NCBI RefSeq assembly: GCF_027595985.1
Contig: NC_073305.1
Span: 85,345,626 to 85,409,625, forward strand
Reading direction: 5' to 3'
Length of the DNA: 64,000 nt
Source of the DNA: Sorex araneus
Lineage: Eukaryota; Chordata; Mammalia; Eulipotyphla; Soricidae
The notes beneath the pieces are model-generated. The model worked only from the letters and a program-made list of their open reading frames with translations. It was not told where the DNA came from and searched no databases. The translations under genes were made by a program, and so were the position numbers. Below, in pieces: positions 901 through 61,558 of the stretch. How positions within the stretch are numbered: position 1 is the first letter of the stretch; each line of letters opens with the position of its first letter.

Positions 901-1072
901 AGGGCTGGAGTGATAGCATAGAGTATAGGGCACTTCCTTGCATGAAGCTGACCTGGGTTCAACACTCAGCACCCCACATGGTGCCCTCATTCACCAGGAG
1001 TGACCCCTGAGCCCTGAGGACAGAACCTGGAGTAAGCCCTAAATACTGCCAGGTGTAGCACCAAAACAATAA
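901..1072 (+). repeat. SOR-type SINE
   Basis: The head GGGCTGGAGTGATAGCATAG, a degenerate B box (GGTTCAACAC) and the body (CACCAGGAGTGACCCCTGAG) are all present. It ends in a CAAAACAATAAC tail. It is moderately diverged, so not recent. Confidence 0.8.
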
Positions 1073-3304: not shown

Positions 3305-3772
3305 TGGGCCCTATGAAAACAAGATGAGAACGCTATTCGGGTATCCCAAAGAGGAATCGAAAGAGCTATGTTTGAAGTATCACGTTTCACTCAAGTGAGA
3401 GAAGGAATCTGGAGTTCCGACCTCCATCAACAATCAAGAATTAGGGACACTGTCTCGTTTGCCAAGGCATCAAAAATCAGATGGGCTGGACACATAATGT
3501 GATTTAGATATGACTGCTGGACTAGAGCTGTTACCGACTGGATTCCATGGGACGTCAAAAGATTGAGTGGCTGCCCACCTACGAGATGGTCAGGATTCTT
3601 CATTAAAACCCTGAACGAACGGTTTGAGGCTCTTCCTGTTCCTGGAGTAAGCAGATACCATTGGGCTACACTAGCACAGGACAGGGATGAATAGAGACGT
3701 TACTGGCTCCCACTCTAGCAAATCAAAAATCAAAGGGATGACAAAGTGAGTGATACAAGTGATAATAACACA
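3305..3772 (+). mobile_element. RTE-type LINE, 5'-truncated 3' end (RTE1_Sar-like)
   Basis: One reading frame from 3326 gives about 147 codons of the C-terminus of an RTE-type retrotransposon protein. Visible blocks are VSQRGIERAMFEVSRFTQVR, KASKIRWAGHIM, WTRAVTDWIPWDVKR, GCPPTRWSGFF, HWATLARDRDE and RRYWLPL. The frame is broken only by three nonsense codons (TGA 3500, TAG 3692, TAG 3716) and has no frameshift, so the copy is dead but fairly young. It ends in a GTGATACA-like tail rather than poly(A), typical of RTE. The wording matches nematode RTE elements, and a shrew family of this kind (RTE1_Sar) is known. It lacks the endonuclease and most of the reverse transcriptase. The family assignment is from memory. 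Confidence 0.85.
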
Positions 3773-4070
3773 AGTTGTTGGTTTTTTCATGTCTCCTTCT
3801 TTCAGTCATCCTCCCCTTCACACTTATGCTTTTGTTCCTTCTATTTTTGCTAAGCTATTGCTTTGGGGATTTTTCCCAAAGTTTCTATTTTGTTCCACTT
3901 GTTGTTTAATTTTCTTCTTATAATGCAACATACTGACTAATCTCCCCAATGTTTGGTATCTAAAAACCAATGAACTCATATTCTAATTCTTCTTCTGAAA
4001 CACCATACTTTAAGAATGTATTAGAATGAATAAATATGCAATAACAAAGGCCCAAGGGAGATTAATGAAG
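3773..4070. other. Unassigned sequence
   Basis: A short AT-rich interval between the RTE copy and the next SINE. Nothing recognised. Confidence 0.4.
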
Positions 4071-7152: not shown

Positions 7153-7313
7153 TTTTATTTTTATTTTGGGGTCAAACCCGGTGATGCTCCAGGTTTACTC
7201 CTGGCTCTGCACTCAGGAATCACTCCTGGGGACCATATGGGATGCTGGGATTCGAACCCAGGTCCTCCCGTGCAAGGCAAATGTCCTACCCGCTGTGCTA
7301 TCGCTCCAGCCCC
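7153..7313 (-). repeat. SOR-type SINE
   Basis: Well-preserved antisense copy: GGTCAAACCCGGTGATGCTC, CTCTGCACTCAGGAATCACT, CCATATGGGATGCTGGGATT, and the head as GCTGTGCTATCGCTCCAGCC. Confidence 0.85.
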
Positions 7314-44983: not shown

Positions 44984-45000
44984 ATATGTATTCTATATAT

Positions 45001-45240
45001 GGGCTGGAGCAATAGCACAGCGGGTAGGTTGTTTGCCTTGCAAGCGGCGGACGGGTTTGATTCTCCGCCCCTTGCGGAGAGCCAGGCAAGCTACCCAGAG
45101 TATCTCACCCACATGGCAGAGCCTGGCAAGCTACCCATGGCGTATTGGATATGCAGAAAACAGTAACAAGTCTCACAATGGAGACATTACTGGTGCCCAC
45201 TGGAGCAAATTGTTGACCAACAGGATGACAGTAACAGTGA
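45001..45240 (+). repeat. Chimeric SINE: SOR-like head with RTE-derived 3' tail
   Basis: The head GGGCTGGAGCAATAGCACAG has an A box (TAGCACAGCGG, 45013-45023) and a degenerate B box. A middle section with two GGCAAGCTACC words follows, then from about 45180 GAGACATTACTGGTGCCCAC, TGGAGCAAATTG and CAGGATGACAGTAAC, aligned to the RTE copy at 3694-3750. It has no poly(A) tail. Flanks TATTCTATATAT (44989-45000) and TATTTTATATAT (45241-45252) look like a 12-nt target site duplication with one mismatch. Confidence 0.85.
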
Positions 45241-45252
45241 TATTTTATATAT

Positions 45253-46305: not shown

Positions 46306-46384
46306 ATAAATTCATTTGTTTGAGGTTTGCAAAGCGGTGGTGGGGAGTTATATAAGATCACTGGTAAAACCCCAATTAATACAT

Positions 46385-46619
46385 GTAGCACTATTGTCCC
46401 GTTGTTCATCGATTTGCTTGAGTGGGCACCAGTAATGTCACCATTGTGAGACTTGTTACTGTTTTTGGCATAGTGAATATGCCATGGGGAGCTTGCCAGG
46501 CTGCCGTGTGGGCGGAATACTCTCGGTAGCTTGCCGGCTCTCCTAGAGGGACGGAGGAATTGAACCCAGATCAGCCGCATGCAAGGGAAACACCCTACCC
46601 ACTGTGCTATTGCTCCAGT
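46385..46619 (-). repeat. Chimeric SINE with RTE-derived tail and perfect TSD
   Basis: Antisense: the RTE-like end comes first (CCCGTTGTTCATCGATTTGC, GTGGGCACCAGTAATGTCAC), then the middle section, then the head GTGCTATTGCTCCAGTC. It is flanked by a perfect 14-bp duplication CCCAATTAATACAT (46371-46384 and 46620-46633). It has no A-tail, and the duplication does not begin with an A-run, unlike the L1-type duplications around SOR copies nearby. Confidence 0.92.
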
Positions 46620-46717
46620 CCCAATTAATACATAGAAAACAAATATAAAACCAAGTCATGCATGCACGCAAACACATGTATGTGTGAGGACATCTTTGAG
46701 ACCATGCTATTAATCTT

Positions 46718-46888
46718 TTTTTTTCTTTTTGGGTCACACCCGGTGATGCACAGGGGTTACTCCTGGCTTTGCACTCAGGAATTACTCCTGGCGGTGCTCA
46801 GGGGACCATATGGGATGCTGGGATTCGAATCCGGGTTGGCCACATGCAAGGCAAATGCCGTACCCGCTATGCTATCGCTCCAGCCCCT
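46718..46888 (-). repeat. SOR-type SINE with perfect TSD
   Basis: A full-length, low-divergence antisense copy. ATGCTATTAATCTT flanks it at 46704-46717 and 46889-46902. The duplication begins at the A-tail with an AAGA run in the SINE sense, as expected for L1-driven insertion. Confidence 0.95.
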
Positions 46889-47049: not shown

Positions 47050-47225
47050 TTTTTTTTTTGGCTTTTTGGGTCACGCCTGGCTATGCACAGGGGTTACTCC
47101 TCGCTCTGCACTCAGGAATTACTCCTGGTGGTGTTCCGGGGACCATATGGGATGCTGGGAATTGAACCAGGGCCGGCCGCGTGCAAGGCAAACGCCCTAC
47201 CCGCTGTGCTATCACTCCAGCCCCC
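47050..47225 (-). repeat. SOR-type SINE
   Basis: A full-length antisense copy. Flanks AAAGCAGCTTT and AAAGCAACTTT suggest an 11-nt duplication with one mismatch. Confidence 0.93.
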
Positions 47226-56508: not shown

Positions 56509-56790
56509 ATTTATTTTTTGGCACCAGAGATCAAACACAGGAACCCATATACCTGTGAAATATGTGCTTTTTTTTTTTTTTTTTTTTGCTTATTGGGTCA
56601 CACCCGGTGATACACAGGAGTCACTCCTGGCTCTGCACTCAGAAATTCCTCCTGGCAGTGCTCGGGCGACCATATGGGATGCTGGGAACCCAACCCGGGT
56701 CAGCTGCATGCAAGGCAACAGCCCTACCCACTGTGCTATCGCTCCAGCCTGGAAACATGTGCTCTTTCACTGAACTACACTCCCAACCTA
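56509..56790 (-). repeat. Old tRNA-like SINE split by a SOR insertion
   Basis: The two outer parts (56509-56568 and 56751-56790) join into one antisense repeat: TTTTGGCACCAGAGATCAAA, then TGTGCTCTTTCACTGAACTA and CACTCCCAACC. This resembles antisense SINEs of the tRNA-Ala type. The SOR copy at 56569 interrupts it. Confidence 0.5.
56569..56750 (-). repeat. SOR-type SINE, nested
   Basis: A full-length antisense copy with a long poly(T). The flanks GAAATATGTGCT and GAAACATGTGCT differ at one base and are the duplicated target within the older repeat. Confidence 0.92.
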
Positions 56791-61304: not shown

Positions 61305-61558
61305 AAACTGTATCACTGTATCACTGTCATCTTATTGCTCATTGATTTGCTCGAGCGGGCACCAGTAATATCTCCATTGTGAGACTTGTTGTTACTGTTT
61401 TTGGCATATCAAATATGCCACGGGGAGCTTGCCAGGCTCTGCCGTGTGGGCGAGATACTCTTGGTAGCTTGCCGGGCTCTCCAAGAGGGGTCGAGGAATT
61501 GAACCCGGGTCGGCCTTGTGCAAGGCAAACGCCCTACCCACTGTGCTATCGCTCCAGC
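61305..61558 (-). repeat. Chimeric SINE with RTE-derived tail
   Basis: In antisense it opens with the tail repeat (TGTATCACTGTATCACTGTC, complement of GTGATACA units), then CTCATTGATTTGCTCGAGCG, GGCACCAGTAATATCTCC, the middle section with paired GCTTGCCAGG and GCTTGCCGGG words, and the SOR-like head GTGCTATCGCTCCAGCAGCC. It preserves the tail best of the three copies. A C-run and A-run at 61560-61579 follow the head end. Confidence 0.9.

Follow-up and report, generated by a model that had tools for sequence, protein, structure and literature searches.

The window analyzed here, a stretch of 64,000 nucleotides of DNA of the shrew Sorex araneus, holds three copies of a SINE that combines a tRNA-type head with two separate segments of an RTE LINE. 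Copy A (45001..45240, forward strand; 210/235 aligned bases identical to the SINE consensus described below) carries a Sor-type tRNA head, a segment of RTE 5' UTR, an RTE 3' end and a short AGTGA-type tail. Its head (45003..45063, forward strand) is homologous to the head of Sor SINEs and reads GGTTTGATTCT in the B-box region, where the consensus has GGTTCGATTCC. The RTE 5' UTR-derived segment (45064..45175, forward strand) matches sequence at the 5' part of the RTE copies in loci L031, L048, L050 and L058, and the RTE frame of the 3'-terminal segment and tail (45176..45240, forward strand) codes for WRHYWCPLEQI..DQQDDS. The copy lies between target-site duplications, TATTCTATATAT at 44989..45000 and TATTTTATATAT at 45241..45252 (both forward strand), which agree at 11 of 12 positions; being AT-rich, they are weaker than those of copy B. 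The latter (46385..46620, reverse strand; 209/237 identical to the consensus) ends in the tail AGTGCTAC and is flanked on the same strand by exact duplications of 13 nt, ATGTATTAATTGG, at 46621..46633 on the 5' side and at 46372..46384 on the 3' side, although the last GG of the 5' duplication may belong to the element. Copy C (61305..61558, reverse strand; 224/243 identical to the consensus) has a tail of the form (ACAGTGAT)n and no clear target-site duplication in its flanks.

The family of the partner LINE is represented in the window by a 5'-truncated RTE copy at 3310..3775 (forward strand, ends approximate), which is interrupted by internal stops, retains the C-terminal part of the reverse transcriptase (RT) protein and the 3' end, closes with a ACAAGTGAT-type tail and is homologous to strongylid proteins (best E 5.8e-46). 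An example of the head-donor family, a Sor-type SINE copy with an A-rich tail, lies at 46716..46887 on the reverse strand. ARAGORN called tRNA-Ala at window positions 906-977, 7237-7308, 47147-47219 and 56674-56746, all four of which are Sor-type SINE heads, and made no tRNA call in the chimeric copies A, B and C. Consequently, tRNA counts in the shrew genome need a SINE filter. Rfam at gathering scores returned no matches.

Sources of the three parts

The SINE consensus, 243 nt long, was derived from 17 copies that span the head and the 3' block (hits starting after position 60 or ending before position 195 were excluded) and were found in 264 kb of sequence. Fourteen of these copies came from a 200-kb sample, made up of twenty 10-kb pieces taken at fixed positions from contigs C1-C3, and three from the window, which was not randomly chosen. 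Judged by sequence similarity, the consensus has three parts: a tRNA-type head (1-64), a stretch of the 5' UTR of RTE1_Sar (~65-179), and the last ~60 nt of that LINE followed by a tandem-repeat tail. RTE sequence accounts for about three quarters of the whole (65-243). The initial annotation had set the captured part at 60-75 nt; a shared 3' end was indeed recovered, and the extent had been underestimated by a further ~110 nt of RTE 5' UTR (45064-45175 in copy A). The SINE is predicted to fold as a long hairpin across its internal junction. Within the head we located by eye, against the general box consensus, motifs that we take to be the A and B boxes of a pol III promoter. With this tRNA-type head and its putative boxes, a high copy number and target-site duplications, the element can be classified as a tRNA-derived SINE; the initial annotation had proposed a SINE.

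The consensus head is identical at 64/64 positions to the consensus of 61 Sor copies, or at 63/64 when a plain majority consensus is taken without the CpG-restoring rule. Homology to the Sor-type consensus ends at position 64, and the chimeric SINE is therefore not a Sor copy; it has a Sor-type head without the Sor body or the A-rich tail. The Sor SINE described from shrews, a T- SINE (PMC8466645, PMC11240701), likewise has another body and an A-rich tail, whereas the chimeric SINE contains RTE segments and no A tail. Note that the A-tailed family that donated the head is taken to be Sor from its host and type, rather than from the published Sor sequence. At the joint of head and middle segment the dinucleotide CC is present in both sources, the Sor head and the RTE 5' UTR.

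Within the window, the 3' block of copy A matches the RTE copy (45177-45230 against 3690-3743) at 74% over 54 nt, with an E value of 2.8e-4 for the 64-kb window as the sequence searched; the match is weak because both copies have decayed. When the consensus of 17 SINE copies is aligned with that of 16 RTE 3' ends, positions 181-242 of the former show 93.7% identity across 63 columns (E 5e-24 for this single pair), which upholds the initial assignment of the SINE 3' end to the window's RTE family; the blocks of sequence quoted in its support are present. The tail had also been described as still readable in frame as the RTE C-terminus, and this too is what we find: translation of the SINE consensus in the RTE frame gives WRRYWCPLEQIDEQRDDS, and strongylid RTE proteins have similar ends (e.g., P0005 with WRRYWRPLEEIDDQRDDR). 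Since the 3' block codes for a C-terminus common to strongylid RTE proteins, it came from the RTE, given that a shrew SINE cannot supply the end of a nematode protein. The same coding relationship favors capture when it is asked, as the initial annotation had suggested, whether the shared block predates the RTE. This argument is confined to the 3' block, and for the 5' UTR segment the nematode comparison does not bear on direction. A 25-nt pattern of the 3' block had no match in viral contigs, and the SINE-frame peptide matched four short unnamed ENA proteins in the protein collection, which are uninformative on other shrews.

The middle segment matches the RTE 5' UTR. Positions 70-173 of the consensus and L031:2417-2520 are identical at 97 of 104 bases, with all seven differences being C-to-T or G-to-A at CpG, and the L031 sequence continues from the SINE-like segment into the RTE 5' part. 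A captured sequence unrelated to the RTE had been a candidate for the middle, and was ruled out once L031 was seen to run into the LINE. Comparisons of RTE 5' ends covered 20 copies, each represented by 751 bases where its 5' end was expected; the copies were chosen among 150 listed matches mostly for their long frames. In three of these 20 regions (L048, L050 and L058), the SINE segment (63-173) is present in one piece with the RTE, with 88-93% identity, and leads without a break into the RTE sequence that lies ahead of the endonuclease in L042; farther downstream in L058, a Sor-type head interrupts the RTE region. L051, a fourth region, has the segment with its start inverted, and the segment was not seen in the remaining 16 of the 20 5' regions. 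Upstream of the SINE segment, L048 and L050 share a further ~100 nt at 93%, part of which is shared by L031 and L058. The RTE 5' UTR homology thus extends upstream of the SINE part, and the SINE holds an internal fragment of the 5' UTR. For the RTE copy beginning in L050, the 3' end lies in L065, as assigned by position with the intervening part unread, and it shows the SINE's diagnostic bases (TGGTGCCCGCTC..GATGAACAACGGGATGACA).

Two further observations concern the RTE 5' end. At L051:155-405, the 5' UTR of an RTE copy begins in opposite orientation to the remainder, the arrangement that twin priming, a process known from L1, would produce. An RTE start at GCATATTCG, first suggested by L042, was discarded, as longer copies show L042 to be 5'-truncated.

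The LINE that provided both RTE segments is taken to be RTE1_Sar on account of its host, its clade and its strongylid protein relatives, and not by comparison with the Repbase sequence. A 431-aa shrew RTE frame has 721 relatives, and among the 120 listed all those named by organism are strongylid nematodes, the best of them with 74% identity. No mammal other than Sorex araneus is named for the 114 matches of the RTE C-terminus; in Pfam, the C-terminus had no match. The strongylid relatives mark the LINE as of nematode type. As to the earlier claim that it was horizontally acquired, RTE1_Sar has been published as horizontally transferred between nematodes and Sorex araneus (PMC6542046). The same source did not find it in reads of hedgehog, solenodon or mole, which were the other eulipotyphlans available at the time, in passages that name no other shrew, and its main text gives no hits for SINE, tRNA or non-autonomous (PMC6542046). 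As a side observation, a long part of the RTE C-terminus is included in the Sorex araneus protein P0042 (F-box only protein 36 isoform X3), so that an RTE copy has been placed inside a host gene product, possibly through an artefact of gene annotation.

Copy number, tails and insertion sites

The genome searched comprised 2.41 Gb in 65 contigs. Genome-wide there are 20,234 exact matches to the 30 nt that span the internal junction between 5' UTR and 3' end, and none to the reversed pattern; the B-box pattern followed after 98-112 nt by the junction occurs 15,569 times (control 0). The 27-nt 3' junction of the coding RTE has 3,772 exact matches (control 0). All of these counts require exact matches and so undercount old or variant copies. 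The 14 SINE copies of the 200-kb sample extrapolate, with wide error, to ~168,000 per genome, and the copy number is perhaps of the order of 10^5. In that sample, the 14 SINE copies compare with three stretches that code for the RTE C-terminus (L014, L019 and L020). A protein search for the RT region yielded 32,977 first-look candidates, so that the junction counts do not fix how many SINEs there are per RTE. The 200 kb also include two places (L009:1705-2159 and L027:3636-4087) where chimeric SINE copies stand as inverted neighbors, separated by 5 and 13 bases; possibly one copy was inserted near the tail of the other.

The mean non-CpG distance of copies to their own consensus is 0.055 for the SINE (17 copies, 0.015-0.091) and 0.071 for RTE 3' ends (16 copies, 0.009-0.156), the RTE set being made up mostly of best hits from mixed subfamilies (L029 was left out, as it holds the same copy as L020). 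These distances give no sign that the SINE is the older of the two. The comparison of copy ages that the initial annotation had called for could therefore be computed, and it does not order the two elements, because the RTE set consists mostly of best hits.

Tails and duplications were scored in 23 copies, three from the window, 11 from the sample and nine from loci fetched as hits; this set excludes hits starting after position 12 or ending before position 228, and L001 was dropped as it contains the same copies as the window. An AGTG-type repeat tail closes 22 of the 23 copies, and a run of A8 lies near the end of one. The tail unit is ACAAGTGAT in most RTE copies versus ACAGTGAT in the SINE. 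With this difference of one base, few copies are informative on the exact partner subfamily (L065, and the tRNA-less L036 and L015/L067). The chimeric element shares its 3' end with an RTE, includes a LINE 5' segment in its body and ends in a tandem repeat rather than poly(A), all of which are features of RTE-dependent SINEs. We infer that the RTE protein copies the SINE by recognizing the shared 3' end.

Target-site duplications with a score of at least 8 flank 12 of the 23 copies, against 1.3 for mispaired flanks, and no duplication reaches that score in the other 11. Under a stricter score, duplications are found in 10/23 chimeric copies (none in 13/23) and in 51/78 Sor copies, with controls of 0.5 and 3.7, respectively. 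Adenine makes up 14/40 of the first four duplicated bases in the chimeric SINE versus 146/204 in Sor, a comparison of 10 with 51 duplications that is partly confounded, since Sor duplications can be extended by bases of the A tail. By a rough count, A-rich sequence follows only 32/61 Sor bodies. An A-rich start of the duplication is what the L1 endonuclease leaves. The chimeric duplications, without such a start, point to an endonuclease other than that of L1.

Origin of the chimera

Copies that combine the RTE 5' part with the RTE 3' end and have no tRNA head exist in the shrew genome (L036, L024 and L067). The derivative at L036:2622-2880 has the tail ACAGTGATA, and that at L024:9305-9640 ends in (GAT)n and carries an additional 5' leader without clear match to the RTE 5' UTRs read. 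A leader of ~80 nt characterizes a second tRNA-less derivative, observed at L024:9305-9640, L025:2148-2495, L014:882-1218 and 7191-6854, and in L017 and L010. Its tails are (GAT)n or of CGTGAT type, and about a dozen copies, some of them partial, are present in the 200-kb sample. At L036:2552-2880, a tRNA-less derivative begins exactly where the tail of a different RTE copy stops, the two being contiguous.

The explanation that we favor, with a probability of roughly 0.88, is that a Sor head was joined to an internally deleted RTE1_Sar and that the RTE copies the product, so that a head formerly dependent on L1 would have taken a nematode-derived LINE as its new partner. At the start, a large internal deletion would give an RTE RNA in which the 5' UTR is joined to the 3' end; we propose such an RNA because tRNA-less copies of matching plan exist. 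A Sor RNA head would then be fused to the deleted RTE, probably by template switching during reverse transcription, with the CC overlap at the joint. Pol III would transcribe the chimera from the putative A and B boxes of the head, and the RTE protein, upon recognition of the shared 3' end, would insert the SINE by target-primed reverse transcription. RNA pairing between the RTE 5' UTR and 3' end was considered as a cause of the deletion and rejected, as the L050 5' UTR pairs with the RTE 3' consensus no better than shuffles do (185/500 were as good).

A single template switch may instead have joined Sor head, RTE 5' UTR and RTE 3' end in one step, with the tRNA-less copies being independent deletions. 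We hold this path to be possible, if doubtful. In the tRNA-less L036, L010, L024 and L067, more of the 5' sequence precedes the switch to the 3' end than in the SINE, whose exact internal junction is GTCTCACAATGG, and consequently none of them is the direct parent of the SINE; against this, 5'-to-3' deletion derivatives arise repeatedly and spread alone, as the dozen or so copies in 200 kb illustrate, which makes a path in two steps cheap. The mode of copying could also be questioned, in that the RTE sequence might reflect the history of the SINE only and the element, like Sor, might actually be copied by L1. L1 is the usual partner of mammalian SINEs, the head is common to the chimeric SINE and the A-tailed Sor, and 11 of the 23 copies have no duplication with a score of at least 8. 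However, the tails are of AGTG type in 22 of 23 copies and poly(A) is absent (one A8 run in 23), and the duplications do not have the A-rich start of those of Sor (14/40 versus 146/204), which renders copying by L1 very unlikely.

The direction of transfer could in principle be reversed, the RTE having acquired its 5' UTR, or the 3' block, from a host SINE. LINE 5' UTRs are often replaced, and for the middle segment alone such an exchange is possible. We nevertheless consider it highly improbable, as the 3' block codes for the C-terminus of strongylid RTE proteins, which a shrew SINE could not have supplied, and as the homology among RTE 5' UTRs runs ~100 nt beyond the SINE part in the upstream direction, leaving the SINE as the fragment. 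Chance similarity or an assembly artefact might be suspected from the window pair, at only 74% over 54 nt, but is negligible in the face of 20,234 exact junctions against a control of 0, the consensus match (E 5e-24) and duplications that flank whole copies.

Other SINE/RTE pairs and evolutionary significance

The initial annotation compared the shrew element with Bov-tA and its partner BovB, and the parallel is a good one, given the same plan of tRNA head and RTE tail; Bov-tA also contains a 5' part of BovB. In the ruminant system, Bov-tA has a tRNA head on a BovB tail, and in Bov-A2 the LINE 5' end replaces the tRNA head (PMC3747384); the tRNA-less shrew derivatives correspond to Bov-A2. The ruminant elements are built from a tRNA-Glu head and BovB sequence (PMC3747384, PMC8620236), whereas the shrew SINE is built from a Sor-type head and RTE1_Sar sequence. 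A horizontally acquired partner had been thought to set the shrew apart from ruminants, a distinction that does not hold, since BovB itself is held to be horizontally acquired (PMC13295347). Other mammalian pairs in which SINE and LINE have a common tail, as in the shrew pair, are Afro SINEs/RTE1 (LA, Pca) and Ped-1/Ped-2/BovB_Pca, described in a source whose main text gives no hits for shrew or for Sorex (PMC3747384).

AviRTE, which was transferred between birds and nematodes, has SINEs composed of a head, part of the 5' UTR and the 3' UTR (PMC4844689). These elements (ManaSINE1, GymnSINE and others) resemble the shrew SINE in having a promoter head and a bipartite tail from a nematode-shared RTE, and ManaSINE1 likewise has a tRNA head (PMC4844689). 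The two systems differ in the RTE family, with AviRTE belonging to another family found in birds and filarial nematodes while the relatives of the shrew RTE are strongylid, and in the head, which is a resident Sor-type SINE in the shrew and tRNA-Glu in the AviRTE SINE (PMC4844689). The claim that the chimera was undescribed consequently needs to be divided. In searches of the open-licence literature, the papers listed yielded no account of a shrew SINE ending in RTE sequence, and the element may be catalogued in Repbase/Dfam or in subscription papers; the novelty of its plan was overstated, because AviRTE SINEs, as described, have the same plan (PMC4844689).

On balance, we incline to the view that the head of a mammalian SINE that depended on the vertically inherited L1 switched to a worm-derived LINE and that the chimera then came to outnumber its foreign partner. 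The pair would be the first of its kind described in a mammal, and the SINE a dated record of the activity of worm-derived machinery in shrews. A transposon shared with worms would then have done more than insert, as it would have given rise to a native shrew SINE. After BovB in ruminants and AviRTE in birds, shrews would add a third vertebrate group to those in which a newly arrived RTE drops its central part, is left with its 5' part joined to its 3' end and receives a local promoter at the front. With the same outcome in ruminants, birds and the shrew, the birth of a SINE looks like a regular consequence of RTE transfer. Since head, middle and tail can each be sourced in one genome, the junctions of the SINE could date the RTE invasion within Soricidae, and they could also test which signals the RTE protein needs.
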